The notes under the pieces are model-generated. The model worked only from the letters and a program-made list of their open reading frames with translations, had not been told where the DNA came from and made no database searches. Positions 5,901-37,853 of a stretch of 64,000 nt of DNA are shown piece after piece (position 1 is the first letter of the stretch; each line of letters opens with the position of its first letter). The position numbers and the translations under genes were made by a program. Source of the DNA: Sisyra terminalis (Eukaryota; Arthropoda; Insecta; Neuroptera; Sisyridae); NCBI GenBank assembly GCA_958496175.1, contig OY292280.1, positions 18,042,001-18,106,000 of the forward strand. The letters are read 5' to 3'.

Positions 5901-6412
5901 TTGAAACGATATTGCCGGTGTCTTTTGGCACACAGGACAAAATTGATTTCCTATTATATTTCACTTGATAGCCTTAATTCAGAATCCGTTGAGAAAACTA
6001 GACCTCATAATGAAAAGTCACCTTCTTTAAATGACCCAATATCAGTCGAATTTTTTCGCTTAGACTTTCAACAATTTAATTTCCAGTTTCAATTTTCCAA
6101 AGATATACGTAACAAATGCTTTTTATTTTTTGCATAGTGGTTAAGAATGGTTTAGTTTATAATATTCAACTTTAATTTAGTGAGGAAAACATCCCTTATG
6201 TCCTTTTTATGCATTAGAAAATTGTCCTTTTTGAAAGTTTGAAACGATATTGCCGGTGTCTTTTGGCACACAGGACAAAATTGATTTCCTATTATATTTC
6301 ACTTGATAGCCTTAATTCAGAATCCGTTGAGAAAACTAGACCTCATAATGAAAAGTCCCCTTCTTTAAATGACCCAATATCAGTCGAATTTTTTCGCTTA
6401 GACTTTCAACAA

Positions 6413-9228: not shown

Positions 9229-10315
9229 GAGGAAAACATCCCTTATGTCCTTTTTATGCATTAGAAAATTGTCCTTTTTGAAAGTTTGAAACGATATTGC
9301 CGGTGTCTTTTGGCACACAGGACAAAATTGATTTCCTATTATATTTCACTTGATAGCCTTAATTCAGAATCCGTTGAGAAAACTAGACCTCATAATGAAA
9401 AGTCCCCTTCTTTAAATGACCCAATATCAGTCGAATTTTTTCGCTTAGACTTTCAACAATTTAATTTCCAGTTTCAATTTTCCAAAGATATACGTAACAA
9501 ATGCTTTTTATTTTTTGCATAGTGGTTAAGAATGGTTTAGTTTATAATATTCAACTTTAATTTAGTGAAGGAAAACATCCCTTATGTCCTTTTTATGCAT
9601 TAGAAAATTGTCCTTTTTGAAAGTTTGAAACGATATTGCCGGTGTCTTTTGGCACACAGGACAAAATTGATTTCCAATTATATTTCACTTGATAGCCTTA
9701 ATTCAGAATCCGTTGAGAAAACTAGACCTCATAATGAAAAGTCACCTTCTTTAAATGACCCAATATCAGTCGAATTTTTTCGCTTAGACTTTCAACAATT
9801 TAATTTCCAGTTTCAATTTTCCAAAGATATACGTAACAAATGCTTTTTATTTTTTGCATAGTGGTTAAGAATGGTTTAGTTTAAAATATTCAACTTTAAT
9901 TTAGTGAGGAAAACATCCCTTATGTCCTTTTTATGCATTAGAAAATTGTCCTTTTTGAAAGTTTGAAACGATATTGCCGGTGTCTTTTGGCACACAGGAC
10001 AAAATTGATTTCCTATTATATTTCACTTGATAGCCTTAATTCAGAATCCGTTGAGAAAACTAGACCTCATAATGAAAAGGCACCTTCTTTAAATGACCCA
10101 ATATCAGTCGAATTTTTTCGCATAGACTTTCAACAATTTAATTTCCAGTTTCAATTTTCTAAAGATATACGTAACAAATGCTTTTTATTTTTGCATAGTG
10201 GTTAAGAATGGTTTAGTTTATAATATTCAACTTTAATTTAGTGAGGAAAACATCCCTTATGTCCTTTTTATGCATTAGAAAATTGTCCTTTTTGAAAGTT
10301 TGAAACGATATTGCG

Positions 10316-10400
10316 GTTGTCCTTTTGCACTCAGGATAAAAAAATTTTCACTCCACTCCTCACGTAAGGACATTGTTTAATAATTTATTTATAAAGTTTA
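10316..10400 (+). repeat. Array 1 right edge: diverged satellite continuing into the block
   Basis: Beyond GATATTGCGG the sequence reads TTGTCCTTTTGCACTCAGGA and then a stretch ending in GGACATTGTTTAATAAT. It no longer matches the homogenised monomer, but it does match the reverse complement of the diverged satellite at 18420-18490, including TCACGTAAGGACATTG. The array therefore fades into an older version of the same repeat instead of ending at an insertion point. The same edge occurs at 28691 and 45301. Confidence 0.8.
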
Positions 10401-10614
10401 CGATTTTCGTGATAATTAACGATGGTTAACCCACGGTTTAGTTTGGTGAAAAATTTTCTTTTCTCGAATTTGAAATAGATTGTTATATTATCGTTTAATA
10501 CATTGTTACGAACCCGAAACTTTATCTGGATCGAAAACCATCCCTTATTTGATCCCTTGACGTTACAAACACTTGAAGTTTGATGATTTCTTCTGCCACT
10601 TTGATTGTCGATTT
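10401..10614. other. Block 1 spacer, no gene seen
   Basis: AT-rich stretch with no supported gene. It contains AAACCATCCCTTATTTGATC near 10540, which echoes the ACATCCCTTATGTCC element of the satellite, followed by TGATGATTTCTTCTGCCAC, which is matched at 19420-19435 in segment Q and, inverted, near 18075-18090. Confidence 0.6.
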
Positions 10615-10673
10615 CATCCCTTAAATGTGGTTTGTTTTCGGAAAAATTTGCACAGCATGTACGGATGGACTTA
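10615..10673 (+). repeat. Direct repeat DR1 (about 59 bp)
   Basis: CATCCCTTAAATGTGG through TTCGGAAAAATTTGCACAGC to GTACGGATGGACTT. It recurs at 11397-11455 with a few changes (ACGAGCTTGG, GCCCAGC, ATGAACTT), 782 bp downstream. The pair brackets the module carrying tRNA-like sequence A. Also present in blocks 2 and 3. Confidence 0.75.
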
Positions 10674-11247
10674 TATTTTTATGAAAAATTTCAAATAACC
10701 CATACAAATTACAAATTAAACCATAAAGCAGCCCTAAAATTACCCGAGAAATGTTATTAAATGCAACATTTATGCAACCATTTATTTTGTTTTTTACATT
10801 GGTGTAAGCAGATTGCCTACCAAACTATATGATTTTTCACGATATTTCTCATATTATTTCCTATGTTATTGTACAAATATAGTACAACAACAACAAAAGA
10901 GTTGAATATCTTATTGGAATTTACGAGAAAACTTATTTTGTTTTCTTTTTGCGGAATTAAATTCTTAAAGTTGATAGTTGGTTTTGATTTACTTTAAAGA
11001 AGAGCAGTACATATTTGTTCATACGACAACAATGCATTACCGTTTCTTAGAATTTTAAATATCGAAAAAAATGGGGAAAAACATCAAAATGTTACTATGA
11101 ATATTGACACATTTTCCGGAAGTATTATGGAGCAGCTATGGCTTCAATTTGTTTTGGAAAATTTCAAATATTTTGATCCCGAAAGAAAATTGAATTTTGT
11201 GATCTGAGAAATATTTATATATAAGTTTTTATTTAATGCAAACACGT

Positions 11248-11319
11248 GCAGTTGTAGCCGAGTGGATATGTTGAGAGAATCTAAAGCAACAATCTCCGGG
11301 TTCGAACCTCGAAAATGTC
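11248..11319 (+). pseudogene. tRNA-like sequence A (Leu/Ser-type boxes)
   Basis: A 72-nt stretch has an A-box-like TAGCCGAGTGG at 11255-11265 and a B-box GGGTTCGAACC at 11298-11308, spaced as in a tRNA gene. The T loop reads TTCGAAC and four of five T-stem pairs form. The acceptor stem is poor (about four of seven pairs) and the D and anticodon stems do not fold cleanly, so a functional tRNA is unlikely. GCCGAGTGG is typical of Leu and Ser tRNAs. Copies lie at 29622-29693 and 46233-46304, and a diverged minus-strand relative lies in Q (19300-19365). It may be a tRNA-derived SINE head or a degenerate tRNA; box-driven Pol III transcription is possible but inferred. Confidence 0.55.
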
Positions 11320-11322
11320 ATA

Positions 11323-11333
11323 TTTTTTTTTTT
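11323..11333 (+). terminator. T11 run after tRNA-like sequence A
   Basis: Eleven consecutive T residues begin four bases after the end of tRNA-like sequence A. RNA polymerase III stops at runs of four or more T, so the position suits a terminator. AT-rich DNA contains other T runs, so the case rests on position. The run is also present, slightly shorter, in blocks 2 and 3. Confidence 0.45.
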
Positions 11334-11455
11334 ATAATTTATTTATATTTTTTTAAGTCTAGAAATAATGCCATAACGTCACCAAATTGCCGCGGTCATC
11401 CCTTAAACGAGCTTGGTTTTCGGAAAAATTTGCCCAGCATGTACGGATGAACTTA

Positions 11456-12235
11456 AGTTTTCGATTGGCATGCCTTTATTTCATATTCAATTTCCTACTC
11501 AATTTCATCTCTTATGTGTGAAAAATCAAAAGCAGTAAGTAATTATATTTAATTTTTAAATTTATTGCTTATTTCTAACATTTCTTATGTATTGACAATT
11601 CGAATTGTTTAGAATTTTGAATTAAGACAACGCCAAAATGCGATTCGTATTTTGTTGGAAGCTATGAGTACATCTACCTGACTCACAGGTGGCACTAAAA
11701 ACTTAAGGTGGTTCAATTGACATACATGTCAAGAGTTCACACGTTCTAGCATAGGTGGAGATACGATACATGTCAATGCGACAGCTAATTTTTGAAAGTT
11801 ATTAGTTCATAATTGACTTTAGTTTTTCCAAATAAATTTAATATTTAATGTTATGGTTGTTTGATCTGATGGCCAATGTTACATTTTAACTTCATAAAAT
11901 CAAAATCGAACAAATAAATGAGAAACAGGTAATATTTATTGTAAAATTGTCGGTATGGGCGCAATGTTTATATGAGGTTATATGTACTTTCTGTTACTTT
12001 TGTAGATATTTTCCAACGTTTAACTAACTAATGAACGACAAAAATGAATTTTTAAAATATATTCAAAAATAATTCATACAGAGAAGAATCTAATCAAATA
12101 ATCTGCAAATGTAAGCCACTGGGAGTGCAGCTTAAGTATTGTGAATATCAGAAGAATATCTCAATCCACGGGATAAACAGGAAGATAATAAAAGATCAGG
12201 TTTTGATCACCGAATTAGGAATAAAAGCAACCTTA
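11456..12235. other. Block 1 spacer with weak splice-like sites
   Basis: No gene is supported. Donor-like sites occur at AAAGCAGTAAGT (about 11531) and AAACAGGTAATA (about 11927); acceptor-like sites at TTTTGTAG (about 12005) and AATTCATACAG (about 12080). An open frame after the last acceptor (about 12083) includes the segment CKCKPLGVQLKYCEYQ. In blocks 2 and 3 and the R arms it stops about 50 codons after the acceptor, while in this copy a change carries it on to 12310. Its 3' part overlaps a satellite relative, so I do not call it a gene. Confidence 0.35.
11676..11776. promoter_or_regulatory. Short dyad cluster (ACCTG/CAGGT and TTGACAT/ATGTCAA)
   Basis: Two dyads lie 26 bp apart: ACCTGACTCACAGGT (11676-11690) and TTGACATACATGTCAA (11717-11732). 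A further ACATGTCAA half-site is at 11768-11776. The group is kept in blocks 2 and 3 and, inverted with a few changes, in the R arms. Dyads of this size often bind dimeric proteins; no factor is identified. Confidence 0.3.
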
Positions 12236-12397
12236 ACCATGGTTGTAATTGAAAGTCCTCCTCATGGAGAGCTGATTTTTGCAATACAGTTAAGATTGAG
12301 TCAGTTTTAAATGGCAGCAATTTTCTACGAAAGAAAACCATCTCTTATATCCTTTTTATGTACTTGAAAATTGTCCTCTTTGAAACTTTGAAAAAAC
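12236..12397 (+). repeat. Diverged satellite relative inside L1
   Basis: This stretch follows the monomer in order: GCAATACAGTTAAGATTGAG (monomer GCATAGTGGTTAAGAATGG), then AAACCATCTCTTATATCC (monomer AAACATCCCTTATGTCC), then TTTTTATGTACTTGAAAATT and GTCCTCTTTGAAACTTTGAA. It breaks off before the GCGGGTGTC motif. It is far more diverged than any array monomer. Copies: about 30610-30775, 47221-47385, and inverted about 17037-17205 and 52034-52200. The upstream 80-100 bp may also be satellite-derived. Confidence 0.7.
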
Positions 12398-12572
12398 AGC
12401 CCTTATCAGGAAAAGCAATCTTGCAACTTTGTTAATAAATGCAGAAGTTTAGCAACCATTGTTTCATTATGGAAATTATGTAAATGGGCTGCGCCATATG
12501 TTCCCCAGTATTCAAGTTAATGTCCCTAGAAAGTATAGTTTGTTTAAATATTAATGAAATATATTTTTACAG

Positions 12573-12811
12573 ATCCAAATTACCAAGAAACTAAGGACCA
12601 AGACATTGTTTTTGCGCTGAAGAATGTATCATCATTTTGGGAGATAAATGATTGGTAAGTCGCTGTACTTTTGAGACCTCCAAATATTTTATTATTGATT
12701 TTTGATTATTTATTGATTTTTTCGTTCCAGAAGAAGCTGACCGATGACAACGGGGAAATATTCATTGGACTTGAGATGTTCATCATTTCCAAATGGACGT
12801 TTGAGGAATAA
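12573..12811 (+). pseudogene. Splice-bounded exon-like pair, L1 copy
   Basis: The first segment (12573-12654) follows TATTTTTACAG and ends at a GTAAGT donor; its one open frame includes DPNYQETKDQDIVFALKN. A 76-bp intron-like gap ends in TTTTTTCGTTCCAG. The second segment (12731-12811) has a 26-codon frame, KKLTDDNGEIFIG through KWTFEE, closed by TAA. Joined by the obvious sites, the two frames are out of phase and a TGA forms at the junction, so no intact gene results. Seven copies occur in the window. The second segment keeps its protein sequence across all of them with few, mostly conservative changes. I read it as the 3' end of a captured or degenerate gene; the family is not recognised. 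Confidence 0.45.
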
Positions 12812-13206
12812 ATGTGGATCGTTGGAGGATCATCAAGCAAACTCCTGTGGGATTTCATTTCCACAATTGATATCTACCAAAAAGATCACTAATGGATTTA
12901 CTACAACAATCTGTGCTGTAAATTGTGTTTTAATAATTCAGTGAATGTGAAGTGATAAAGTGGTTTAAGTGATAAATAGTGAAAATATCTGAAAAATCAA
13001 GAAAATTGTATTAACTTTATATTTCTATATGATTATAATAATTGATACTTTTACATAAATTATATAAACTATTGTAATAATGGAGAAAATAATATTATAA
13101 TTTATTATAAACTGAATTGATATTTAATATTAATAAATTTATTTTAATTGAATATATTTTTTCAATTCGTTTTTCCGCACCAATCCTCTTGAATTTTAAA
13201 TTTCAG
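12812..13206. other. AT-rich spacer, no gene seen
   Basis: After the exon-like pair come GATAAAGTGGTTTAAGTGATA-type short repeats (12955-12975; doubled in the R and L' copies), then strongly AT-rich sequence with TAATAAATTTATTTTAATTG near 13130, where AATAAA could serve as a poly(A) signal. A TTTCAG acceptor-like site ends the stretch. Confidence 0.4.
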
Positions 13207-13234
13207 AGTTAAGATACAAAGAAAAGTTAAGATA

Positions 13235-14017
13235 ATGCAACGAAGAGGTAAGTAAGGTAAGTTTAATATTATTCGATAGATTATCGAATAATTCGATAAA
13301 GCCAATATCGAAAAATATCTCAACTTTTTGAAGTCCTTATCGATTTTTCATTATATATAAATTTTAATTTTCTGAAGAAACTCTTTTGAAATACAAATTG
13401 GTTTTTGTCGACAAAAAGGATCAAGGATCTTAAAATGTTGCAATGTTTTTAGTAAAATTTTCCAACTTTAACATGGAGCAGCTATGGTTAAAAGGTTTTT
13501 GGAAAATTCCAACTCCTTCGATCGAAATATTTTTTCAATTTTCCACAAATCTCATAAGAATTGTTTATGTATGAGTTTTAAGGTCATTTACATATATCAT
13601 CTGATAGCCGAGTCGTCTTGGTCGCCGTTGCTGTTGTTCGGAGTCGAGGTCCCTGGTTCGCATCCCGATTGGTCCCGGATTTTTATAATTTCTAATAATT
13701 GATTTCTCTTCCTTACAGTTTATAATATAACTAATTAACATTAATTCCTCATTCCAGACATTGTATCATCGAAATATTCGATCGAACAGTTCCAACCTTT
13801 CGGGGTTCGAAATGATCGATCGATGATGCTATATATTTTTCATTTTATTTTTGCTCAATGGTTTTGTGACGTCACTCTTTTCATATATATGACGTCACAC
13901 ATACGTCGCCACCCAATGACGTCATTCCCGAAAAATTACCGAATTTTCGATTTTCGGGAAGTTGGACTCTGGGAATGGCTTAGTTACGTCACGGGAGGCC
14001 TAAAAAACATATCCTGA
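13235..14017 (+). CDS. Candidate two-exon small membrane-protein frame, L1 copy (hypothetical)
   Basis: Proposed coding parts are 13235-13247 (ATG CAA CGA AGA G, in a 41-nt micro-exon between TTTCAG and GTAAGT) and 13758-14017 (after CTCATTCCAG, with CTAATTAAC as a possible branch site). They join in frame to give 90 codons ending at TGA. Near residues 26-48 a hydrophobic run, MLYIFHFIFAQWFCDV and onward, could span a membrane. The 510-bp intron holds CGATA cluster 1 and tRNA-like sequence B. Of six full copies, five keep the joined frame (one has a 3-bp deletion) and one, in block 3, is frameshifted by a 4-bp insertion. Most differences change amino acids, which does not suggest purifying selection. 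No known family is recognised, and the second exon overlaps palindromic CRE-like sites, so a chance frame is quite possible. Confidence 0.22.
13274..13342. promoter_or_regulatory. CGATA/TATCG motif cluster 1
   Basis: Five CGATA motifs on either strand lie within 69 bp: CGATA at 13274, TATCG at 13282, CGATA at 13294, TATCG at 13306 and TATCG at 13338. In Drosophila, clustered CGATA binds the boundary factor BEAF-32, and DREF binds the related TATCGATA. Whether this organism has such factors is unknown. The cluster recurs in every L, R and L' copy. Confidence 0.35.
13598..13675 (+). pseudogene. tRNA-Leu-like sequence B, L1 copy
   Basis: GATAGCCGAGTCGTCTTGG at 13603 resembles the D-arm region of eukaryotic tRNA-Leu (GCCGAGTGGTCTAAGGCGCC). 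CCTGGTTCGCATCCC at 13652 is a near-consensus B box, with one mismatch to GGTTCGANTCC. Box spacing is about 6 nt longer than in a class I tRNA, in line with a long variable arm. The acceptor stem does not pair and the T stem is weak, so this is a tRNA-derived or degenerate unit. TTTTT follows at 13680-13684. It is a GC-rich island in AT-rich DNA, and the core looks identical by eye in all six complete copies (also 15740-15817, 20748-20825, 31972-32049, 48583-48660 and 50745-50822). Confidence 0.6.
13866..13924. promoter_or_regulatory. Cluster of three TGACGTCA palindromes
   Basis: Perfect 8-bp TGACGTCA sites lie at 13867-13874, 13890-13897 and 13917-13924, and a related TTACGTCA at 13984-13991. 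TGACGTCA is the classic cAMP-response element bound by CREB/ATF bZIP dimers. Three perfect sites in 58 bp is far above chance in AT-rich DNA. Other copies have lost one or more sites (for example AACGTCAC at about 21041 and GAAGTCAT at 32292). Confidence 0.4.
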
Positions 14018-14032
14018 AGTCAATTTTTTCGG

Positions 14033-14054
14033 TTTTTTTTTTTGGGGGGGGGGG
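14033..14054. repeat. T11-G11 homopolymer junction
   Basis: Eleven T are followed directly by eleven G. The same place in other copies has shorter runs (about 7-9 G), and the R arms show the complement C/A. The lengths are unstable, as expected from slippage; base-calling error in homopolymers is also possible. Confidence 0.8.
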
Positions 14055-14252
14055 ACCTCGAATTTTCGAATTTAGTGAAATGGGATTTCGGGAATGGCTT
14101 AGTTACGCTCCGAGAAGCCTAAATATCATTTTTAATTATATAATTTTTCATTTTTTGGCGAAAAATTTTTGGGCCGGTTTTCAAAAAAATCCCAAAAGTA
14201 GGCCTAAATTGGCGATTTTTTTCACTTTTTCCAACTTTAAAGCCATTTGTAG

Positions 14253-14317
14253 CGATAACTATCGATCGTAGGTTAACGATAATAGGCTCATTCGATAGCT
14301 CTTGAATTACTTTATCG
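14253..14317. promoter_or_regulatory. CGATA/TATCG motif cluster 2
   Basis: Five more CGATA motifs lie within 65 bp: CGATA 14253, TATCG 14260, CGATA 14277, CGATA 14293 and TATCG 14313, around a GTTAAC. A smaller group, CGATATCG and CGATA, follows at about 14510-14537. All sit near the palindrome centre and are therefore mirrored in the R arm. Confidence 0.35.
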
Positions 14318-14640
14318 AGGGTGTAAATTTGGTCCCGGAAAAGCTTAAGGGAAAAATTTTTTTTTTTCTACTCCTGAGAAATTTTATTTCGTCGACCAAA
14401 TGTACGTCGATTTTTTTCAAAAAAATGTTTGTCGAATTTCTCGATGAAATTCACACCATAGCTATATTACGTTACGATCGAAACAAAAATCCAATTAAAC
14501 CTAAAGTTTTCGATATCGTTAATGGTTTTTTCGATATTTAATATTCTCTTATTGTGCTATTCAAAAACAAATCTATTTTGTTAAAAAAAGGATCAAGGAC
14601 CTAAAAGTTTTCCAATGTGGATTCACATCTTTTCCGATCG

Positions 14641-14766
14641 TAACATGGAGCACCTATGGTTAAATTTTTTCCGGAAAATTCCATGAAAATCTTTCTGGTG
14701 ACCATTTGATCAAAAGATTTTATTGCAATTTTCCGGCAAAATTTTAACCATAGGAGCTCCATGTTA
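14641..14766. repeat. Palindrome core, orientation I
   Basis: 126 bp bounded by TAACATGGAG and CTCCATGTTA. Both ends hold the CTATGGTTAAA / TTTAACCATAG dyad, with unique sequence TGGTGACCATTTGATCAAAA between. The equivalent core in block 3 (49641-49766) has the same length but is the reverse complement of this one, with about four mismatches by eye. Confidence 0.85.
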
Positions 14767-15397
14767 CGATCGGAAAAGATGTAAGACCGCATTGGAAATT
14801 TTTTAGTTCCTTGATCCTTTTTTCAAGAAAACAAATTTGTATTTAAATAGCATTAGCTAGCACAATAGGTGAATTTTAAATATCGAAAAAACCATTTACG
14901 ATATCGAAAACTTTAGGTTTTATTGGATTTTTGTTTCGATCGTAACGTAATATAGCTATGGTGTGAATTTCATCGAGAAATTCGACAAACATTTTTTTGA
15001 AAAAAATCGACGTACATTTGGTCGACGAAATAAAATTTCTCAGAAGAGAAAAAAAAAAGTTTTTCCCCTTAAGCTTTTCCGGGACCAAATTTATACCATC
15101 GATAGAGTAATTCAAGCGCTATCGAATGAGCCTACTATCGTTAACCTACGATCGATAGTTATCGCTACAAATGGCTTTGAAGTTGGAAAAAGTGAAAAAA
15201 ATCGCCAATTTAGGCCTATTTTTGGGATTCTTCAGAATTTCTGCCGGAAAATTTTCGCCAAAAAAATGAAAAATTGTATAATTAAAAATGATTTTTAGGC
15301 TTCTCGGAGCGTAACTTAGCCATTCCCGAAATCCCATTTCACTAAATTCGAAAATTCGAGGTCCCCCCCCCAAAAAAAAAAACCGAAAAAATTGACT

Positions 15398-16179
15398 TCA
15401 GGATATGTTTTTTAGGCCTCCCGTGACGTAACTAAGCCATTCCCAGAGTCCAACTTCCCGAAAATCGAAAATTCGGTAATTTTTCGGGAATGACGTCATT
15501 GGGTGGCGACGTATGTGTGACGTCATATATATGATAAGAGTGACGTCACTAAACCATTGAGCAAAAATAAAATGAAAAATATATAGCATCATCGATCGAT
15601 CATTTCGAACCCCGAAAGGTTGGAACTGTTCGATCGAATATTTCGATGATACAATGTCTGGAATGAGGAATTAATGTTAATTAGATATATTATAAGCTGT
15701 AAGGAATAGAAATCAATTATTAGAAATTATAAAACTCCGGGACCAATCGGGATGCGAACCAGGGACCTCGACTCCGAACAACAGCAACGGCGACCAAGAC
15801 GACTCGGCTATCAGATGATATATGTAAATGACCTTAAAACTCATATATAAACAATTCTTATGAGATTTTTGGAAAATTGAAAAAAAATTTCGATCGAAGG
15901 AGTTGGAATTTTCCAAAAACCTTTTAACCATAGCTGCTCCATGTTAAAGTTGGAAAATTTTACTAAAAACATTGCAACATTTTAAGATCCTTGATCCTTT
16001 TTTTCGACAAAAACAAATTTGTATTTCAAAAGAGTTTCTTCAGAAAATTAAAATTTATATATAAAATAAAATCGATTAGGACTTCAAAAAGTTGAGATAT
16101 TTTTCGATATTGGCTTAATCGAATTATTCGATAATCTATCGAAAACATTGATTTTACCTTACTTACCTCTTCGTTGCAT
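15398..16179 (-). CDS. Candidate two-exon small membrane-protein frame, R1 copy (hypothetical)
   Basis: Minus-strand parts 16179-16167 (ATGCAACGAAGAG before GTAAGT) and 15657-15398 join in frame to 90 codons, as in the L1 copy. The acceptor before the micro-exon is TATATTACAG here. Amino-acid changes relative to L1 include QWFSDV for QWFCDV and TLIIY for TLFIY. The hydrophobic stretch is kept. It is independent of the L1 copy only to the extent that the arms have diverged; evidence of function is lacking. Confidence 0.2.
15740..15817 (-). pseudogene. tRNA-Leu-like sequence B, R1 copy
   Basis: Inverted copy of 13598-13675 with the same core from GATAGCCGAG to TTCGCATCCC. Downstream on the minus strand the L1 sequence CCGGATTTTTATAA is CCGGAGTTTTATAA here, leaving four T. 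It lies in the intron of the R1 two-exon candidate. Confidence 0.58.
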
Positions 16180-16618
16180 TATCTTAACTTTTCTTTGTAT
16201 CTTAACTCTGTAATATAAAATTCAAGAGGATGGGTGCGGAAAATCGAATTGAAAAAATATATTCAATTAAAATAAATTTATTAATGTTAAATATCAATAC
16301 AGTTTATAAAAAGTTACAATATTAGTTTTTCCATTATTACAATAGTTTATATAATTTATGTAAAAGTATCAATTATTAAAATCATATAGAAATATAAAGT
16401 TAGTAAAATTTTCTTGATTTACAGATATTTTCACTATTTATCACTTAAACCACTTTATCACTTAAACCACTTTATAACTTCACATTCACTGAATTATTAA
16501 AACACAATTTACAGCACAGATTGTTGTAGTAAATCCATTAGTGATCTTCTCGGTAGATATCAATTGTGGAAATGATATCCTTTATGAATTTGATGGATGA
16601 TCCTCCAAAGATCCGCAT

Positions 16619-16864
16619 TTATTCCTCAAACGTCCATTCGGAAATGATGAACATCTCAACTCCAATGAATAATTCTCCGTTGTCATCGGTCAGCTTCTTC
16701 TGGAACGAAAAGATCAATAAATAATCAAAAATCAATAATAAAATATTTGGAGGTCTCAAAAGTACAGCGACTTACCAATCATTTATCTCCCAAAATGATG
16801 ATACTTTCTTCAGCGCAAAAACAATGTCTTGGGCCTCAGATTCTTAGTATGTCTTGGTATGGAT
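16619..16864 (-). pseudogene. Splice-bounded exon-like pair, R1 copy
   Basis: The second segment (16699-16619) encodes KKLTDDNGELFIGVEMFIIS and on to TFEE, then stop. The first segment (16864-16776) still has acceptor and donor but is rearranged (CATACCAAGACATACTAAG) and its frame is broken by TGA. This is the more degraded version of the pair. Confidence 0.45.
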
Positions 16865-17036
16865 CTGTTAAAATATATTTCATTAATATTTAAACAAACT
16901 ATACTTTCTAGGGACATTAACTTGAATACTGGGGAACATATGGCGCAGCCCATTTACATAATTTCCATAATGAAACAATGGTTGCTAAACTTCTGCATTT
17001 ATTAACAAAATTGCAAGATTGCTTTTCCTGATAAGG

Positions 17037-17205
17037 GCTGTTTTTTCAAAGTTTCAAAAAGGACAATTTTCAAGTACATAAAAAGGATATAAGAGATGGT
17101 TTTCTTTCGCAGAAAATTGCTGCCATTTAAAACTGAATCATTCTTAACTGTATTGCAAAAATCAGCTCTCCATGAGGAGGACTTTCAATTACAACCATGG
17201 TTTAA
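17037..17205 (-). repeat. Diverged satellite relative inside R1
   Basis: Inverted counterpart of 12236-12397, including TTTCAAAAAGGACAATTTTC and GGATATAAGAGATGGTTTTC. Confidence 0.65.
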
Positions 17206-18050
17206 GTCGCTATTATGCCTAATTCGGTGATCAAAACCTGATCTTTTATTATCTTCCTGTTTATCCCGTGGATTGAGATATTCTTCTGATATTCACAATA
17301 CTTAAGCTGCACTCCCAGTGGCTTACATTTGCAGATTATTTGATTAGATTCTTCTCTGTATGAATTATTTTTGAATATATTTTAAAAATTCATTTTTGTC
17401 GTTCATTAGTTAGTTAAACGTTGGAAAATATCTACAAAAGTAACAGAAAGTACATATAACCTCATATAAACATTGCGCCCATACCGACAATTTTACAATA
17501 AATATTACCTGTTTCTCATTTATTTGTTCGATTTTGATTTTATGAAGTTAAAATGTAACATTGGCCATCAGATCAAACAACCATAACATAAAATATTCAA
17601 TTTAATTGGATAAACTAAAGCCAATTAAGAACTAATAACTTTCAAAAATAAGCTGTCACATTGACATGTATCGTACCTCCATCTATGCTACAACGTGTGA
17701 ACTTTTGACAAGTATGTCAATTGAACCACCTTAAGTTTTTAGTGCCACCTATGAGTCAGGTGGATGTACTCATAGCTTCCAACAAAAGTCGAATGCATTT
17801 TGGCGTTGTCTTAATTTAAAATTCTAAACAATTCGAATTGTCAACAAATTAGATTTGTTAGAAAAAAAAACAATAATATAAAAACTGAATTATGAACTTA
17901 CTGCTTTTGATTTTTCACACATAAGAGATGCAATTGACTACATGGAAACTGGTAAAAATTGAACAAACTTACAATGGAGAAATCCAAACAGAAAGTTTAA
18001 GTCCTCCCATTCAAGCTGTGCTAATTATTTCGAAAACAAAGCTCGTTTAA

Positions 18051-18923
18051 GAGATGAAATCGACAATCCATGTGGCAGAAAAAATCATAAAACCATCCAA
18101 TCTTCAATCGCCTGTAACACCGTTAAATAAAGGTTTTTTTCGAACCAATATCGCAATATCGATTCAAATTTTCAAAAAGGACAATTTTCGAGTGCTTAAA
18201 AAGGATATAAGGGATGTTTTGTTTCGCCAAAATTGAGTTGAATATTAAAGATTAAATCATCCTTAACCATGATGCAAAAAATCATAAGCATTGGTTCACT
18301 AGATCCTTGGAAAATTAAATTGGGAAATTAAGGAGGTGAAAACCCTTGCACCAAATTGGCTTGAAAAAAGGTCATTTTTGAGGGGTGACTTTTCCTTATA
18401 ACAGCTAATTTTCGCAACGGATTATTAAACAATGTCCTTACGTGAGATGTGGAGTGAAAAAATTTTTATCCTGTGTGCCACAGGACACCCGCAATATCGT
18501 TTCAAAGTTTCAAAAAGGACAATTTTCGAGTGCATAAAAAGGATATAAGGGATGTTTTGTTTCGCCAAAATTGAGTTGAATATTAAAGATTAAATCATCC
18601 TTAACCATGATTTAATTGGAAAAACATATAGGTAAATCATCGATCGATCAATCAATCATTTCCAAATGTCGAAGGCTATCGTTGATCGATTGAACACATG
18701 GTGCTAAAATTCGGAAACGAGGGTTCATGTTAAGAAGTGATAATGTGAGCCAACGTAAGTTAAAAGAAATTAAAACCAATTATTATGGTAGCAAAACATA
18801 TTGGGCTCATTCGCCAATCGAATTCGAAACCTCCGGTTCCAGCATAGCCGTCCAGTAAATCGTTCCGGAGAGTAGCAGAAATCTGCATATTTTCCGGTGA
18901 AAACGGAATAAAACTTACCTACT
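18051..18923. other. Segment Q, first half: no gene seen apart from the satellite relative
   Basis: From 18051 to about 18146 the sequence resembles, inverted, the region upstream of DR1 in L (TCGACAATCCATGTGGCAG). The inverted satellite follows to 18610. From 18611 to 18923 there is unrelated AT-rich sequence with an ATCGATCGATC cluster (about 18637) and a weak, degenerate tRNA-like patch on the minus strand at about 18795-18865. A 60-codon ATG frame (18054-18236) runs into the satellite relative and is not called. Confidence 0.5.
18147..18610 (-). repeat. Inverted, diverged satellite: about 1.4 monomers
   Basis: Read on the minus strand, the order is that of the array monomer: AATCCGTTGCGAAAATTAGC, AAAAGTCACC, CCAATTTAATTTTCC, AATGCTTATGATTTTTTGCA, TGGTTAAGGATGA, AACATCCCTTATATCC, GAAAATTGTCC, TTTGAATCGATATTGCG. 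The landmark CGCAATATCG occurs at 18152 and again at 18490, exactly 338 bp apart. Identity to the arrays is high in the CATCCCTTAT-to-GGTGTC segment and low elsewhere. It is opposite in orientation to every array. Copy at 53145-53608. Confidence 0.85.
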
Positions 18924-19170
18924 ATGAATAGGAACGATTGTTTGGTGAAATTGACACTTATTATTCTTTGGGTCTATACCGTCTATGCCCCAAAGGTAGT
19001 TGCAAACCTTTTCGAATTGAAAGTAACAACTTTTTACAGGAATAAAACACTTGCACTTACCATCGTTTATTTTTCAGAAAATCATCTGGAAAACGTCCGA
19101 AGAAATGCTGCAGGTACTGTACAAATTTATCAGAAAACAATCCTCATTTCCTATTGACATAAATAATTAA
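18924..19170 (+). CDS. Candidate small spliced frame with signal-peptide-like start, block 1 copy (hypothetical)
   Basis: ATG at 18924 opens a frame whose first 24 codons include LVKLTLIILWVYTVYAPK, a basic-then-hydrophobic start like a signal peptide, although the residues at the likely cleavage point are not ideal. At AAG|GTAGTT (18995/18996) a possible donor begins an 82-bp intron ending in TTTATTTTTCAG (19077). The second exon, KIIWKTSEEMLQVLYKFIRK and on, reads to TAA at 19170, 54 codons in all. Read without splicing, the same ATG gives 77 codons to 19157. A further donor-like CAG|GTACTG at 19113 leaves the 3' end uncertain. The block 3 copy is almost identical, so copies cannot show selection. 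No family is recognised. Confidence 0.3.
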
Positions 19171-19579
19171 ATGTTAGGTCTTGTTCATTTTTTGATGACT
19201 CCATTTAAAGATTGGTCCTCGAGTAGCTAGATACAACTGTAAGAAATGTATTTAAGCAATAAGCAGCGACCGGACACCATCTACGGATATCCTTCATATG
19301 GCAATTTCAAGGTTCGAACCCGGAGATTGTTCCCTCAACATACTTATCAGCCCGGCTACAAAGTCATCCCTTACCTATTTGACGAAGTTAGAAGCACTTG
19401 AATATTAAAGGGTTTGATGATTTCATCTGCCTCCAAATTGATGCACAATTTCATACCTTCAATGGGCTTTGTATATGGAAAAATTTGCACAGCATGTTTA
19501 ATGTGAAATGTAAAAAGTCCAGTGACGTTCCCACAAGTGTTAAATCTATGCTACATAGGTAAATGAAAAAGAATTGGAA
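19171..19579. other. Segment Q, second half: no gene seen
   Basis: Contains the minus-strand tRNA-like sequence at 19300-19365 and, from about 19365 to 19500, a plus-strand stretch related to L 10540-10660 (CATCCCTTACC, TGATGATTTCATCTGCC, AAAAATTTGCACAGCATGT). Similarity to L proper starts near 19580. Confidence 0.5.
19300..19365 (-). pseudogene. tRNA-like sequence A relative in Q, block 1 copy
   Basis: On the minus strand, TAGCCGGGCTGATAAG (A-box region) is followed by TATGTTGAGG, CAACAATCTCCGGGTTCGAA and a B box, GGGTTCGAACC. It shares GTTGAG and ACAATCTCCGGGTTCGAACC with tRNA-like sequence A of L but is about six bases shorter. No T run follows it. It is a second, older member of the same tRNA-derived family. 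Confidence 0.5.
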
Positions 19580-19714
19580 GTGACTTTTGTGTTAATAAAT
19601 GCAGAAGCAACCAATGTTTTCATTATGTAAATTATATGTTCCCCAGTACCTATACATGTTAATGTAGCTAGAAAGTATAATTTGTTTAAATAATTATAAA
19701 ATATATTTTTACAG

Positions 19715-19945
19715 ATCCAAATTACCAAGAAACTATGGACAAAGACATTGTTTTTGCGCTAAAGAATGTATCATCTTGTTGGGAGATAAATAATTGGTAA
19801 GTCGCTGTACTTTTGAGACTTCCAAATATTGATTTTTGATTATTTATTGATTTTTTCGTTCCAGAAGAAGCTGACCGATGACAACGGAGAATTATTCATT
19901 GGAGTTGAGATGTTCATCATTTCCGAATGGACGTTTGAGGAATAA
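19715..19945 (+). pseudogene. Splice-bounded exon-like pair, L'1 copy
   Basis: First segment 19715-19796 (frame includes DPNYQETMDKDIVFALKNVS), donor GTAAGT, 68-bp gap, second segment 19865-19945 (KKLTDDNGELFIGVEMFIIS and on to TFEE, stop). The phase conflict is the same as in L1. This copy lies downstream of the Q signal-peptide-like frame on the same strand, so the two could be remnants of one gene; phases do not join cleanly. Confidence 0.45.
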
Positions 19946-20384
19946 ATGCGGATCTTTGGAGGATCATCCATCAAATTCATAAAGGATATCATTTCCCCAA
20001 TTGATATCTACCGAGAAAATCACTAATGGATTTACTACAACAATCAGAGCTGTAAATTGTGTTTTAATAATTCAGTGAATGTGAAGTTATAAAGTGGTTT
20101 AAGTGATAAAGTGGTTTAAGTGATAAATAGTGAAAATATCTGTAAATCAAGAAAATTTAATTAACTTAATATTTCTATATGATTATAATAATTGATACTT
20201 TTACATAAATTATATAAACTATTGAAATAATGGAAAAACTAATATTGTAATTTATTATAAACTGTATTGATATTTAACATTAATAAATTTATGTTAATTG
20301 AACATATTGTTTCAATTTGATTTTCCGCACCCATCTTCCTGAATTTTATATTTCAGAGTTAAGATACAAAGAAAAGTTAAGATA

Positions 20385-21167
20385 ATGCAACGATTAGGTA
20401 AGTAAGGTAAGTTCAATATTTTTCGATAGATTATCGAATAATACGATAAAGCCAATATCGAAAAATATCTCAACTTTTTGAAGTCCTTATCGATTTTTCA
20501 TTATATATAAATTTTAATTTTCTGAAGAAATTCTTTTGAAATACAAATGTTGTTTTTTTCGAAAAAAGGGATCAAGGACCTTAAAATGTGGCCATGTTTT
20601 TAGTAAAATTTTCCAACTTTAACATGGAGCAGCTATGGTTAAAAGGTTTTTGGAAAATTCCAACTCCTTCGATCGAAATTTTTTTTCAATTTTCCACAAA
20701 TCTCATAAGAATTGTTTATGTATGAGTTTTAAGGTCATTACATATATCATCTGATAGCCGAGTCGTCTTGGTCGCCGTTGCTGTTGTTCGGAGTCGAGGT
20801 CCCTGGTTCGCATCCCGATTGGTCCCGGATTTTTATAATTTCTAAAAATTGATTTCTATTCCTTACAGCTTATAATATATCTAATTAACATTAATTCCTC
20901 ATTCCAGACATTGTATCATCGAAATATTCGATCGAACAGTTCCAACCTTTCGGGGTTCGAAATGATCGATCGATGATGCTATATATTTTTCATTTTATTT
21001 TTGCTCAATGGTTTTGTGACGTCACTCTTTTCATATATATAACGTCACACATACGTCGCCACCCAATGACGTCATTCCCGAAAAATTACCGAATTTTCGA
21101 TTTTCGGGAAGTAGGACTCTGGGAATGGCTTAGTTACGTCACTAGAGGCCTAAAAAACATATCCTGA
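20385..21167 (+). CDS. Candidate two-exon small membrane-protein frame, L'1 copy (hypothetical)
   Basis: Parts 20385-20397 (ATGCAACGATTAG before GTAAGT) and 20908-21167 join in frame to 90 codons. Differences from L1 include MQRLD for MQRRD, IYITS for IYMTS and VTRGL for VTGGL. Splice sites are intact. Confidence 0.2.
20748..20825 (+). pseudogene. tRNA-Leu-like sequence B, L'1 copy
   Basis: Same core as 13598-13675, with TTTTT shortly downstream (CCGGATTTTTATAA). Confidence 0.58.
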
Positions 21168-22114
21168 AGTCAATTTTTTCGGTTTTTTTTTTGGGGGGGG
21201 GGACCTCGAATTTTCGAATTTAGTGAAATGGGATTTCGGGAATGGCTTAGTTACGCTCCGAGAAGCCTAAAAATCATTTTTAATTAAACAATTTTTCATT
21301 TTTTTGGCGAAAATTTTCCGGCCGAAATTCTGAAGAATCCCAAAAATAGGCCAAAATTGGCGATTTTTTTCACTTTTTCCAACTTCAAAGCCATTTGTAG
21401 CGATAACTATCGATCGTAGGTTAACGATAGTAGGCTCATTCGATAGCGCTTGAATTACTCTATCGATGGTATAAATTTGGACCCGGAAAAGCTTAAGGGG
21501 AAAAACTTTTTTTTTTCTCTTCTGAGAAATTTTATTTCGTCGACCAAATGTACGTCGATTTTTTTCACAAAAATGTTAGTCGAATTTCTCGATGAAATTC
21601 GGAACCATAGCTATATTACGTTACGATCGAAACAAAAATCCAATTAAACCTAAAGTTTTCGATATCGTTAATGGTTTTTTCGATATTTAAAATTCACCTA
21701 TTGTGCTAGCTAAAGCTATTTAAATACAAATTTGTTTTCTGGAAAAAAAGGATCAAGGACCTAAAAGTTTTCCAACAAATGCTTTTTTTTTTTTGCATAG
21801 TGGTTAAGAATGGTTTAGTTTATAATATTCTACTTTAATTTAGTGAAGGAAAACATCCCTTATGTCCTTTATATGCATTAGAAAATTGTCCTTTTTGAAA
21901 GTTTGAAACGTTATTGCGGGTGTCTTTTGGCACACAGGACAAAATTGATTTCCTGTTATATTTCACTTGATAGCCTTAATTCAGAATCCGTTGAGAAAAC
22001 TAGACCTCATAATGAAAAGTCACCTTCTTTAAAAGACCCAATATCAGTCGAATTTTTTCGCATAGACTTTCAACAATTTAATTTCCAGTTTCAATTTTCC
22101 AAAGATATACGAAA

Positions 22115-24320
22115 CAAATGCTTTTTATTTTTTGCATAGTGGTTAAGAATGGTTTAGTTTATAATATTCAACTTTAATTTAGTGAAGGAAAACATCCCTT
22201 ATGTCCTTTTAATGCATTAGAAAACTGTCCTTTTTGAAAGTTTGAAACGATATTGCGGGTGTCTTTTGGCACACAGGACAAAAGTTTTTTCCTATTATAT
22301 TTCACTTGATAGCCTTATTTCAAACTCCGTTGAGAAAACTAGACCTCATAATGAAAAGTCACCTTCTTTAAATGACCCAATATCAGTCGAATTTTTTCGC
22401 ATAGACTTTCATCAATTTAATTTCCAGTTTCAATTTTCCAAAGATATACGAAACAAATGCTTTTTATTTTTTGCATAGTGGTTAAGAATGGTTTAGTTTA
22501 TAATATTCTACTTTAATTTAGTGAAGGAAAACATCCCTTATGTCCTTTATATGCATTAGAAAATTGTCCTTTTTGAAAGTTTGAAACGTTATTGCGGGTG
22601 TCTTTTGGCACACAGGACAAAATTGATTTCCTGTTATATTTCACTTGATAGCCTTAATTCAGAATCCGTTGAGAAAACTAGACCTCATAATGAAAAGTCA
22701 CCTTCTTTAAATGACCCAATATCAGTCGAATTTTTTCGCATAGACTTTCAACAATTTAATTTCCAGTTTCAATTTTCCAAAGATATACGAAACAAATGCT
22801 TTTTATTTTTTGCATAGTGGTTTAGAATGGTTTAGTTTATAATATTCATCTTTAAATTAGTGAAGGAAAACATCCCTTATGTCCTTTTTATGCATTAGAA
22901 AATTGTCCTTTTTGAAAGTTTGAAACGATATGGCGGGTGTCTTTTGGCACACAGGACAAAATTGATTTCCTATTATATTTCACTTGATAGCCTTAATTCA
23001 GAATCCGATGAGAAAACTAGACCTCATAATGAAAAGTCACCTTCTTTAAATGACCCAATATCAGTCGAATTTTTTCGCATAGACTTTCAACAATTTAATT
23101 TCCAGTTTCAATTTTCCAAAGATATACGTAACAAATGCTTTTTATTTTTGCATAGTGGTTAAGAATGGTTTAGTTTATAACATTCAACTTAAATTTAGTG
23201 AGGAAAACATCCCTTATGTCCTTTTTATGCATTAGAAAATTGTCCTTTTTGAAAGTTTGAAACGATATTGCGGGTGTCTTTTGGCACACAGGACAAAATT
23301 GATTTCCTATTATATTTCACTTGATAGCCTTAATTCAGAATCCGTTGAGAAAACTAGACCTCATAATGAAAAGTCACCTTCTTTAAATGACCCAATATCA
23401 GTCGAATTTTTTCGCTTTGACTTTCAACAATTTAATTTCCAGTTTCAATTTTCCAAAGATATACGTAACAAATGCTTTTTATTTTTTGCAAAGTGGTTAA
23501 GAATGGTTTAGTTTATAATATTCTACTTTAATTTAGTGATGGAAAACATCCCTTATGTCCTTTTTATGCATTAGAAAATTGTCCATTTTGAAAGTTTGAA
23601 ACGATATTGCGGGTGTCTTTTGGCACACAGGTTAAAAGTTTTTTCCTATTATATTTCACTTGATAGCCTTAATTCAGAATCCGTTGAGAAAACTAGACCT
23701 CATAATGAAAAGTCACCTTCTTTAAATGACCCAATATCAGTCGAATTTTTTCGCATAGACTTTCAACAATTTAATTTCCAGTTTCAATTTTCCAAAGATA
23801 TACGAATCAAATGCTTTTTATTTTTTGCATAGTGGTTAAGAATGGTTTAGTTTATAATATTCAACTTTAATTTAGTGAAGGAAAACATCCCTTATGTCCT
23901 TTTAATGCATTAGAAAATTGTCCTTTTTGAAAGATTGAAACGATATTGCGGGTGTCTTTTGGCACACAGGACAAAATTTTTTTCCTATTATATTTCACTT
24001 GATAGCCTTAATTCAGAATCCGTTGAGAAAACTAGACCTCATAATGAAAAGTCACCTTCTTTAAATGACCCAATATCAGTCGAATTTTTTCGCATAGACT
24101 TTCATCAATTTAATTTCCAGTTTTTAATTTTCCAAAGATGTACGTTACAAATGCTTTTTATTTTTTGCATAGTGGTTAAGAATGGTTTAGTTTATAATAT
24201 TCAACTTTAATTTAGTGAGGAAAACATCCCTTATGTCCTTTTTATGCATTAGAAAATTGTCCTTTTTGAAAGTTTGAAACGATATTGCGGGTGTCTTTTG
24301 GCACACAGGACAAAATTGAT
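22115..24320 (+). repeat. Seven-monomer higher-order unit, copy 1 (2,371-bp step)
   Basis: The seven successive monomers here are repeated in the same order at 24486-26690. Shared rare markers are GAAAACTGTCC, the GATATGGCGGG monomer, TTTGCAAAGTGG, the CACAGGTTAAAAG monomer, GAAAGATTGAAACG and TCCAGTTTTTAATTTTCC. I saw almost no differences between the copies by eye. Confidence 0.9.
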
Positions 24321-24485
24321 TTCCTATTATATTTCACTTGATAGCCTTAATTCAGAATCCGTTGAGAAAACTAGACCTCAAAATGAAAAGTCACCTTCTT
24401 TAAATGACCCAATATCAGTCGAATTTTTTCGCATAGACATTCAACAATTTAATTTCCAGTTTCAATTTTCCAAAGATATACGTAA

Positions 24486-26690
24486 CAAATGCTTTTTATT
24501 TTTTGCATAGTGGTTAAGAATGGTTTAGTTTATAATATTCAACTTTAATTTAGTGAAGGAAAACATCCCTTATGTCCTTTTAATGCATTAGAAAACTGTC
24601 CTTTTTGAAAGTTTGAAACGATATTGCGGGTGTCTTTTGGCACACAGGACAAAAGTTTTTTCCTATTATATTTCACTTGATAGCCTTATTTCAAACTCCG
24701 TTGAGAAAACTAGACCTCATAATGAAAAGTCACCTTCTTTAAATGACCCAATATCAGTCGAATTTTTTCGCATAGACTTTCATCAATTTAATTTCCAGTT
24801 TCAATTTTCCAAAGATATACGAAACAAATGCTTTTTATTTTTTGCATAGTGGTTAAGAATGGTTTAGTTTATAATATTCTACTTTAATTTAGTGAAGGAA
24901 AACATCCCTTATGTCCTTTATATGCATTAGAAAATTGTCCTTTTTGAAAGTTTGAAACGTTATTGCGGGTGTCTTTTGGCACACAGGACAAAATTGATTT
25001 CCTGTTATATTTCACTTGATAGCCTTAATTCAGAATCCGTTGAGAAAACTAGACCTCATAATGAAAAGTCACCTTCTTTAAATGACCCAATATCAGTCGA
25101 ATTTTTTCGCATAGACTTTCAACAATTTAATTTCCAGTTTCAATTTTCCAAAGATATACGAAACAAATGCTTTTTATTTTTTGCATAGTGGTTTAGAATG
25201 GTTTAGTTTATAATATTCATCTTTAAATTAGTGAAGGAAAACATCCCTTATGTCCTTTTTATGCATTAGAAAATTGTCCTTTTTGAAAGTTTGAAACGAT
25301 ATGGCGGGTGTCTTTTGGCACACAGGACAAAATTGATTTCCTATTATATTTCACTTGATAGCCTTAATTCAGAATCCGATGAGAAAACTAGACCTCATAA
25401 TGAAAAGTCACCTTCTTTAAATGACCCAATATCAGTCGAATTTTTTCGCATAGACTTTCAACAATTTAATTTCCAGTTTCAATTTTCCAAAGATATACGT
25501 AACAAATGCTTTTTATTTTTGCATAGTGGTTAAGAATGGTTTAGTTTATAACATTCAACTTAAATTTAGTGAGGAAAACATCCCTTATGTCCTTTTTATG
25601 CATTAGAAAATTGTCCTTTTTGAAAGTTTGAAACGATATTGCGGGTGTCTTTTGGCACACAGGACAAAATTGATTTCCTATTATATTTCACTTGATAGCC
25701 TTAATTCAGAATCCGTTGAGAAAACTAGACCTCATAATGAAAAGTCACCTTCTTTAAATGACCCAATATCAGTCGAATTTTTTCGCTTTGACTTTCAACA
25801 ATTTAATTTCCAGTTTCAATTTTCCAAAGATATACGTAACAAATGCTTTTTATTTTTTGCAAAGTGGTTAAGAATGGTTTAGTTTATAATATTCTACTTT
25901 AATTTAGTGATGGAAAACATCCCTTATGTCCTTTTTATGCATTAGAAAATTGTCCATTTTGAAAGTTTGAAACGATATTGCGGGTGTCTTTTGGCACACA
26001 GGTTAAAAGTTTTTTCCTATTATATTTCACTTGATAGCCTTAATTCAGAATCCGTTGAGAAAACTAGACCTCATAATGAAAAGTCACCTTCTTTAAATGA
26101 CCCAATATCAGTCGAATTTTTTCGCATAGACTTTCAACAATTTAATTTCCAGTTTCAATTTTCCAAAGATATACGAATCAAATGCTTTTTATTTTTTGCA
26201 TAGTGGTTAAGAATGGTTTAGTTTATAATATTCAACTTTAATTTAGTGAAGGAAAACATCCCTTATGTCCTTTTAATGCATTAGAAAATTGTCCTTTTTG
26301 AAAGATTGAAACGATATTGCGGGTGTCTTTTGGCACACAGGACAAAATTTTTTTCCTATTATATTTCACTTGATAGCCTTAATTCAGAATCCGTTGAGAA
26401 AACTAGACCTCATAATGAAAAGTCACCTTCTTTAAATGACCCAATATCAGTCGAATTTTTTCGCATAGACTTTCATCAATTTAATTTCCAGTTTTTAATT
26501 TTCCAAAGATGTACGTTACAAATGCTTTTTATTTTTTGCATAGTGGTTAAGAATGGTTTAGTTTATAATATTCAACTTTAATTTAGTGAGGAAAACATCC
26601 CTTATGTCCTTTTTATGCATTAGAAAATTGTCCTTTTTGAAAGTTTGAAACGATATTGCGGGTGTCTTTTGGCACACAGGACAAAATTGA
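24486..26690 (+). repeat. Seven-monomer higher-order unit, copy 2
   Basis: Counterpart of 22115-24320, offset 2,371 bp. After about 26690 the copies diverge (CAGAAACCGTTG here). Two monomers at 26645 and 27322 then share CAAAAATTTAATTTCCAATT, another 677-bp dimer step. Confidence 0.9.
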
Positions 26691-29621: not shown

Positions 29622-29693
29622 GCAGTTGTAGCCGAGTGGATATGTTGAGAGAATCTAAAGCAACAATCTCCGGGTTCGAACCTTGAAAATGTC
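29622..29693 (+). pseudogene. tRNA-like sequence A, block 2 copy
   Basis: Same boxes as 11248-11319. The 3' half of the T stem reads CCTTG instead of CCTCG, which keeps a G-T pair. A T run follows at about 29698. It again lies between DR1 (about 28990-29047) and DR2 (about 29771-29829). Confidence 0.52.
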
Positions 29694-30775: not shown

Positions 30776-30946
30776 CTTATCAGGAAAAGCAATCTTGCAA
30801 CTTTGTTATTAAATGCAGAAGTTTAGCAACCATTGTTTCATTATGGAAATTATGTAAATGGGCTGCGCCATATGTTCCCCAGCATTCAAGTTAATGTCCC
30901 TAGAAAGTATAGTTTGTTTAAATATTAATGAAATATATTTTTACAG

Positions 30947-37850: not shown

Positions 37851-37853
37851 AGT

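Follow-up and report, generated by a model that had tools for sequence, protein, structure and literature searches.

The palindromic blocks that interrupt the satellite arrays of this region bear related satellite sequence at their edges, and the reading that probably accounts for them is that the right (R) edge varies in copy number, while the satellite now adjoining the left (L) edge, S, was joined there by exchange within a conserved sequence box rather than by growth of the L edge itself. The stretch of DNA analysed, hereafter the window (64 kb; C7:18042001-18106000), belongs to a genome of 376.6 Mb in 11 contigs and contains four head-to-tail arrays of S, with a 338/339-bp unit, and three blocks in between (Table 1). 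Block 1 runs from the L edge through the L flank, outer arm, a fragment F and inner arm to a centre at ~14700, followed by the R arm, and beyond this lie Q, then X, then a third, shortened inner arm that leads into the next S array. Block 2 is the L half alone. No tRNA was found in the window, and none of its sequence reached the gathering score of an Rfam family.

Table 1 Satellite arrays, palindromic blocks and satellite-related features of the window (positions in the window).
Feature	Position	Strand	Basis or remark
Block 1	~10342-21773
Block 2	~28717-32993
Block 3	~45327-55750
S array, adjoins block 1 L edge	1-10299	+	TRF period 339; 30 full monomers
S array, adjoins block 2 L edge	21774-28673	+	TRF; 20 full monomers
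S array, adjoins block 3 L edge	32994-45284	+	TRF; 36 full monomers
S array past block 3	55750-64000	+	TRF; 23 full monomers
E1, Q-type part of L-edge boundary monomer, block 1	10300-10384	+	77/85 to Q, 58/85 to S consensus
E2, Q-type L-edge remnant, block 2	28674-28759	+	nhmmer profile
E3, Q-type L-edge remnant, block 3	45285-45369	+	nhmmer profile
L flank, common to R flank	10528-10679	+	flank comparison
~716-bp stretch	10680-11395	+	66-bp direct repeat at its bounds (87.9%, block 2 coordinates)
Palindrome, L arm (+) / R arm (-)	11396-18057	.	self-inverted BLAST match, 6730 columns, 92.8% identity
F, older satellite fragment (118 bp), L arm block 1	12276-12393	+	nhmmer E 1.5e-12
F, block 2	30650-30767	+	E 4.4e-13
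F, L arm block 3	47261-47378	+	E 2.5e-13
F, R arm block 1	17044-17161	-	E 1.1e-14
F, R arm block 3	52040-52157	-	E 4.2e-14
R flank, immediately inside Q	17992-18147	-	97-100% identity in 30/30 Q loci fetched
Q, 1.36 Q-type satellite copies, R-arm edge	18152-18607	-	nhmmer, array-monomer profile, E 2.5e-89
Qa	18269-18606	-	Qa vs Qb 114/117
Qb, partial	18152-18268	-
Q, second copy, block 3	53150-53604	-	E 2.5e-89; same as block 1 copy
X, non-satellite, outside Q	18611-19376	.	adjoins Q in 30/30 loci fetched; shortened in L009, L021
Third, shortened inner-arm copy, runs into following S array	19590-21773	+	BLAST of block 1 against window

Compared in 200-base bins, the arms of blocks 1 and 3 are mostly 93-100% identical, with a minimum of 81.5% at the centre, while the six bins over 17942-19141, the strip that holds Q, are identical at 200/200 each. 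The near-identical core points to a recent duplication of the block, and the copies of Q in the two blocks were treated as one datum because this strip does not differ between them. Over the whole comparison (10342-20754 versus 45327-55751), the single-copy stretch at ~17942-20341 is 99-100% identical and the arm bins span 81.5-100%; ectopic conversion among the multi-copy arms would explain why orthologous arms diverge more than the core. The palindrome centre (14600-14810, 49600-49810) is itself a near-perfect inverted repeat, and two S arrays meet the inner arm at CCTAAAAGTTTTCC, ~90 bases before that centre. Within 21774-28716, monomer similarity scores cycle with a period of ~2371 bases, equal to seven monomers, which suggests a higher-order repeat.

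The original prediction described the sequence outside the R arm as a strongly diverged, minus-strand form of the satellite with a landmark spacing of exactly 338 bp, and these features are all present. Q follows the monomer through profile positions 1-456 in both copies, a match that is not due to chance, and is ~75% identical to S; 18152-18273 recurs at 18490-18611, exactly 338 bases on, with 97.5% identity across 122 bases; and Q adjoins the R arm, with the R flank and its homology to the L flank starting at ~18147, a few bases from the inner end of Q. Qa shares a mean of 74.7% identity (73.1-75.7%) with the 109 full S monomers, which are on average 96.7% identical among themselves. At the L edge, the satellite ends ~268 bases earlier in repeat phase than at the R edge, and ~140 bases of other sequence precede the flank common to both sides; the two flanks differ by ~29% over 168 columns. 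A continuation of diverged satellite through 10385-10580 gained no support: the array score there was 38.4, and 200 shuffles run for that comparison had a mean of 36.6 and a maximum of 54.8; against Q, the same stretch scored 51.8.

The short satellite pieces at the L edges, designated E, are of Q type and meet S abruptly. In block 1, the boundary monomer is S-type to phase ~101 and Q-type from phase ~124. Of the edge sequence first named for testing, 10316-10400, the Q-type character was borne out for 10300-10384. Over the 85 edge columns, E agrees with Q against S at 20 sites and with S against Q at 1, and E is no nearer to the S consensus (58/85) than Q is (63/85). E also carries the Q/T state at 21/23 sites diagnostic between S and T, where T denotes the Q-like satellite of long C7 arrays and R-edge arrays (consensus from 26 T monomers). 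The last full monomers ahead of the three L edges have identities of 0.985, 0.967 and 0.985 with the S consensus, inside the spread of the full set of 109 (0.950-0.997), and S monomers hold at most 4/92 T states; there is thus no gradient from Q to S at the L edges. Divergence of end-of-array monomers where homogenisation is lacking was reportedly treated by McAllister and Werren in 1999. End monomers do diverge from inner ones in this genome, both in E beside S and in UE beside a third subfamily, U (see below), and both of these end pieces are Q-type. The grouping of E with Q and its Q/T states speak against descent from the adjoining S lineage, while approximately unbiased (AU) tests leave trees with E and S together standing.

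Phylogenetic trees were built with 109, 28, 22 and 11 S monomers, the second of them rooted on D35b, an older satellite relic on C4; 26 T monomers were included in the 28-S and 22-S trees and 13 in the 11-S tree, which was made without the two monomers of L026 and without partial edge rows. The 109 full S monomers derive from BLAST cutting, while the site counts over the 85 edge columns, at the 82 differences between Q and S and with F as outgroup rest on 84 monomers found by fuzzy motif, an incomplete set. In the 109-S tree, the full S monomers (109/109) formed a single clade that excluded Q, E and F (support 100/88), so that Q lay outside every array monomer of the window as predicted, with no nesting among them, and the L-edge remnants grouped with Q (95/96), again as anticipated. 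S was likewise one clade in the 28-S tree (98/99), and a Q/T clade was separated from S at 100/100 in both the 22-S and 11-S trees. AU tests did not reject joining E to S (p = 0.40, 0.107 and 0.102 in the 109-S, 28-S and 22-S trees), the edge pieces being short, nor joining Q to S (p = 0.197, 28-S tree), and the groupings of E and Q are therefore read from site counts and branch support. In the 28-S tree, the decayed edge rows Tedge36 and Tfar36 fell inside T, so that T, Q and E did not form a clean clade (AU p = 0.359).

One rival view makes Q a recent duplicate of the S arrays in this window that has since decayed. Q does have the unit length and order of the arrays, but differs from the S consensus at 82 sites, of which the 84 S monomers hold on average 0.79 in the Q state, and its copies in blocks 1 and 3 do not differ. 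Such an origin is scarcely credible on this evidence, and the tree and the existence of Q/T arrays elsewhere rule it out. With E grouping with Q, the L edge is of Q type, unlike S, and this speaks against an origin of S by growth of that edge.

Elsewhere in the genome, R edges were found in several states of growth. A search with Q returned at least 48 matches (from 40 scored of 1326 candidates), 44/48 of them on C7 between 16.29 and 22.71 Mb; among the matches listed, Q-bearing copies lie on C4, C6, C7 and C8. In all 30 loci fetched, which are those most similar to the Q of the window and hence a biased sample within a partial census of R and L edges, Q has the same neighbours, namely X, R flank, outer arm, F and inner arm. 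Q is present at 1.36 copies in 24 of these loci and at 2.36 copies in 6. In 6/6 of the latter, the copy number change is in register and the extra monomer is a chimera, with the Qb state at 72 and the Qa states at 99 and 106, as would be left by one unequal exchange between Qa and Qb; a reverse deletion could also have left the chimera, and the markers fit a change between 1.36 and 2.36 copies in either direction.

Longer R-edge arrays were also encountered. A 24-base pattern common to Q and E occurs 769 times (449 and 320), and among the matches listed are arrays at C7:3.640-3.670 Mb (+) and from C7:3.723 Mb (-). A 24-base satellite motif was absent from the viral contigs and from the bacterial and archaeal genomes scanned, sets from which records of the window's own genome may have been left out. 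The long Q-type arrays on C7 have a period of 339-340, and the T consensus matches Q at 325/338 positions and S at 246/338. In L038, a homologue of the R arm (86-90% identical to window 14601-18036) has a T array in the place of Q, with T repeats still present at C7:3745000, or ~64 units if unbroken. Other R edges carry at least 7 Q-like copies (L052) and ~15 or more (L049+L053), each reaching the end of the sequence read, and ~1.25 copies (L054), with no further match in the 3.5 kb fetched. The phase of the R junction is 117 in L049 and in the Q of the window, and 115 in L052 and L054. No S was found at any R edge read. The loci read outside the window upheld the existence of short edges; the expectation that the R edge had stayed unexpanded was not borne out as a general rule, given copy numbers of ~1.25, at least 7, ~15 or more and ~64 at other R edges and of 2.36 in 6/30 Q loci.

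The Q of the window could be what was left when a once-long R-edge array of Q type contracted to 1.36 copies. The close match of Qa and Qb (114/117), far closer than that of Q and S, indicates late tandem duplication or homogenisation, the junction phase of the long arrays in L049 and L052 is nearly that of Q, and the 1.36 and 2.36 states both occur. Against contraction, Q lacks states that are fixed or nearly so in T arrays; for example, column 124 is T in 26/26 T-array monomers, but Q shares its state there with S, E and those older relics that were shown. Q was also placed below the Q/T array monomers (90/87 in the 22-S tree and 63/90 in the 11-S tree, neither starred) and, in the 11-S tree, sat at the base of Q/T on a zero-length branch, a weakly supported position, and one block, at 14.42 Mb, is short at both edges. 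Contraction thus appears rather unlikely, and the same data weakly suggest that the Q of the window is near-ancestral for the Q/T subfamily. The ancestor-like status first proposed for Q may accordingly be kept for the Q/T arrays, on the same weak support, but not for S.

On C7, listed Q copies are all on the minus strand from 16.29 to 18.47 Mb and all on the plus strand from 20.18 to 22.71 Mb. Similarly, among the first 100 listed of 123 L-edge junctions, the orientation flips between 18.55 and 20.09 Mb, with one exception at 20.30 Mb. Among the matches listed, C7 16.3-22.7 Mb is therefore a megabase-scale inverted arrangement of blocks.

The L edge also exists in a bare state. The junction was sought with a spanning 34-base pattern, which occurs 123 times (43 and 80), and six L edges outside the window were read. 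Four of these, at C7:3.716, 11.984, 14.254 and 14.418 Mb, consist of a single 178-bp half-monomer of Q type (phases 9-186; 168-169/178 identical to Q, 94-95%) and have no array. Each is preceded by a non-satellite sequence, P, of which the other three copies are 90-99% identical to the first over the part compared. The 716-bp stretch at 10680-11395 is absent from these four L arms, in which L flank 295 runs straight into outer arm 3 (L046, L047, L048 and L051+L057). Reading through showed that the paired bare L and R edges belong to the same blocks, giving four complete palindromes without N: L046+L055+L038, L047+L058+L050+L052, L048+L056+L049+L053 and L051+L057+L054, with ~64, at least 7, ~15 or more and ~1.25 R-edge copies, respectively. 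The palindrome at 11.98 Mb contains a repeated inner-arm piece. Three of the four bare-L blocks thus have a grown R edge, the mirror image of the blocks in the window, and the fourth, at 14.42 Mb, is short on both sides. Growth at a single edge therefore does occur, with unlike subfamilies at L and R. Collapse of arrays in the assembly may affect bare or short edges.

The two remaining L edges carry arrays of different subfamilies. The one at C6:0.92 Mb carries S, with a boundary of the same kind as in the window, and is the first among the matches listed for an S 25-mer with 4973 exact matches (1815 and 3158). The other, at C6:1.43 Mb, has at least 30 copies of U followed by a boundary monomer that is Q-type at phases 2-186. 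Next to S as well as next to U, the L flank contains the 716-bp stretch, and the S- and U-bearing edges may accordingly share one array-bearing L ancestor.

The original prediction held that short L and R edges predated the palindrome and that the L edge itself was amplified into S while the R edge stayed at ~1.4 copies. Parts of this account stand. Short satellite edges exist on both sides, as bare L half-monomers, as short R edges and together in the 14.42-Mb block; a unit of ~338-340 bp is common to S, Q, T and U and so most simply predates the S arrays; Q lies outside all full S monomers; the divergence between S and Q is similar to that between the L and R flanks; and the AU tests leave E with S standing. 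However, E matches S no better than Q does, and the bare L edge lacks phases 187-338, with unrelated DNA before it, and so could not by itself supply the 338-bp unit of S. In addition, a Q-type L edge may carry either S or U, and R edges have expanded elsewhere. Amplification of the L edge into S is thus improbable, and the claim that S is the expanded L edge was not upheld. Because the divergence of the L and R flanks matches that between S and Q, S may instead represent an old lineage of the L side, with Q-type sequence having later replaced its edge.

The blocks themselves may be, or derive from, a foldback-type transposon with arms ending in satellite, in which case the satellites would have been seeded by transposition. 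The window palindrome and the four complete palindromes are of this form, their long inverted arms bearing tandem repeats at the outer edge, Q-bearing copies lie on C4, C6, C7 and C8, and the Tetris element provides a precedent (PMC4079207). Two loci, L033 (C4:25001-35000) and L034 (C7:6592001-6602000), contain block cores with Q and no S array in the 10 kb read. The sharing of the outside sequence P by four L edges, however, resembles segmental duplication rather than independent insertion, and the longest stop-to-stop frame listed for block 1 is 115 aa. Such an origin is unlikely on balance.

The third subfamily, U, combines Q-like and S-like segments in a mosaic. Compared with Q, it has 5/109 differences in phases 0-111 and 39/108 in phases 165-276; compared with S, it has 20/108 in phases 0-111 and 5/109 in phases 165-276. 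At 89 diagnostic sites, its S and T states fall into 20 runs, against a shuffled mean of 41 (0/20000 shuffles as low), and 28/28 further U monomers share the same pattern. Such a structure suggests that Q-like and S-like satellites exchanged segments and that the product was then amplified. Alternatively, U may preserve an older form, with the later changes in S and in Q/T falling in different segments. In phases 0-110, 8/8 older relics with data over most of that interval hold more T than S states; in phases 111-275, D35b has 26 S and 11 T states and the other relics are mostly T.

The divergence between Q and S is itself uneven. Their least diverged 60-nt stretch holds 3/82 differences (permutation p = 0.0015), and in columns 101-120, inside the interval of the S-to-Q switch at the L edge (phases 101-124), Q equals S at 20/20 positions. 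The CENP-B box core motif is NTTCGNNNNANNCGGGN; the best match to it is 7/9 in both S and Q, and a match of at least 7 was found in 67/300 shuffles of S, which places it at chance level.

Older pieces of the family occur both inside the blocks and beyond them. The five F copies, one per arm and no part of the original prediction, are on average 73-75% identical to S and 75-79% to Qa. Isolated, diverged satellite pieces were found in L035:3370-4096 (C4), L036:194-447 and 2003-2241 (C7), L039:941-1410 and L040:884-1353 (C7), and L041:1329-1671 (C3), suggesting that the satellite family is older than S, T and U. With F as the outgroup, 7 sites are unique to S and 5 to Q, a rate test that is weakened because F may be no true outgroup, as it falls with Q/T/E on the D35b root (85/85, 28-S tree). 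With D35b as the outgroup, S agrees with it at 28 sites and T at 17. Neither test favours S as the faster lineage.

Under the preferred reading of R-edge variation and L-edge exchange, the block would be a palindromic repeat element with satellite at both outer edges. Its R edge would be a true Q-type tandem, whose copy number varies from one genomic copy of the block to another, probably through unequal crossing-over, and the Q of the window would be that edge in a short form, placed at the base of Q/T or close to it. The L edge would originally have been just the 178-bp half-monomer of the Q-type subfamily, to which S, a sister subfamily, was presumably joined by homologous exchange, most likely in the conserved box at phases 101-124. 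After joining, S would have multiplied and been homogenised along with the blocks across what may be a pericentromere-like part of C7. A broader version of this reading makes the block a two-ended seed, in which either the R edge grows Q/T or the L half-monomer captures S or U through the box, and the block and array then spread together over several megabases of C7; we regard this extension as possible and hold it tentatively.

Several known systems resemble parts of this arrangement. Tetris, a foldback transposon of Drosophila virilis, carries TIR-220 repeats in its inverted arms, with few repeats in some copies and kilobase arrays elsewhere; the bulk of the repeats lie on short branches and those of one complete element on long branches, and two near-identical alleles differ by one repeat, for which unequal crossing-over was proposed (PMC4079207). 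Tetris is the nearest case of inverted-arm repeats turned satellite; it differs in that the two palindrome edges here bear unlike subfamilies and one L-adjoining array is a mosaic. The nearest case of conserved palindromic inserts in a satellite is that of the Tribolium madens TmSat1/TmSat2 cassettes, which lie in the major satellite, show macro-dyad symmetry with an inversion point and conserved transition zones, and oscillate in copy number inside (PMC13081366). The Tribolium cassette is satellite, whereas the palindrome here has non-satellite arms, satellite at its edges and a 118-bp relic inside.

The edges themselves also have counterparts. Mollusc satellite arrays end at abrupt junctions with decayed end monomers and pieces swapped for unrelated sequence, and divergence at array ends from a lack of homogenisation is presented there as established (PMC5139131). 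The L edge here is similarly abrupt, with parts of a monomer replaced, but its end monomer is also of another subfamily, in contrast to the decayed end monomers of that account. In Meloidogyne, conserved boxes are described as sites of array rearrangement at junctions of divergent monomers (PMC3694981), which is like the conserved short box found here where divergent monomers of one family meet; the difference is that the CENP-B box core is not above chance in S and Q. The literature searched gave no match for a 338-340-bp satellite of such make-up and no palindrome with different sister satellites at its two edges in mirror-image states.

How satellites begin and how they switch is usually unreadable, as long arrays wipe out their own history. 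In this one assembly, the R junction is present at ~1.25, 1.36, 2.36, at least 7, ~15 or more and ~64 copies, and the L junction as a bare half-monomer or next to either of two other subfamilies, S and the mosaic U. The presence of each junction in many states makes the order of steps, with the edge first, growth later and capture by exchange, open to testing. If the block does act as a two-ended seed, the identity of an array would depend on the edge that is active and on capture through the box, and not on the edge sequence that was amplified.
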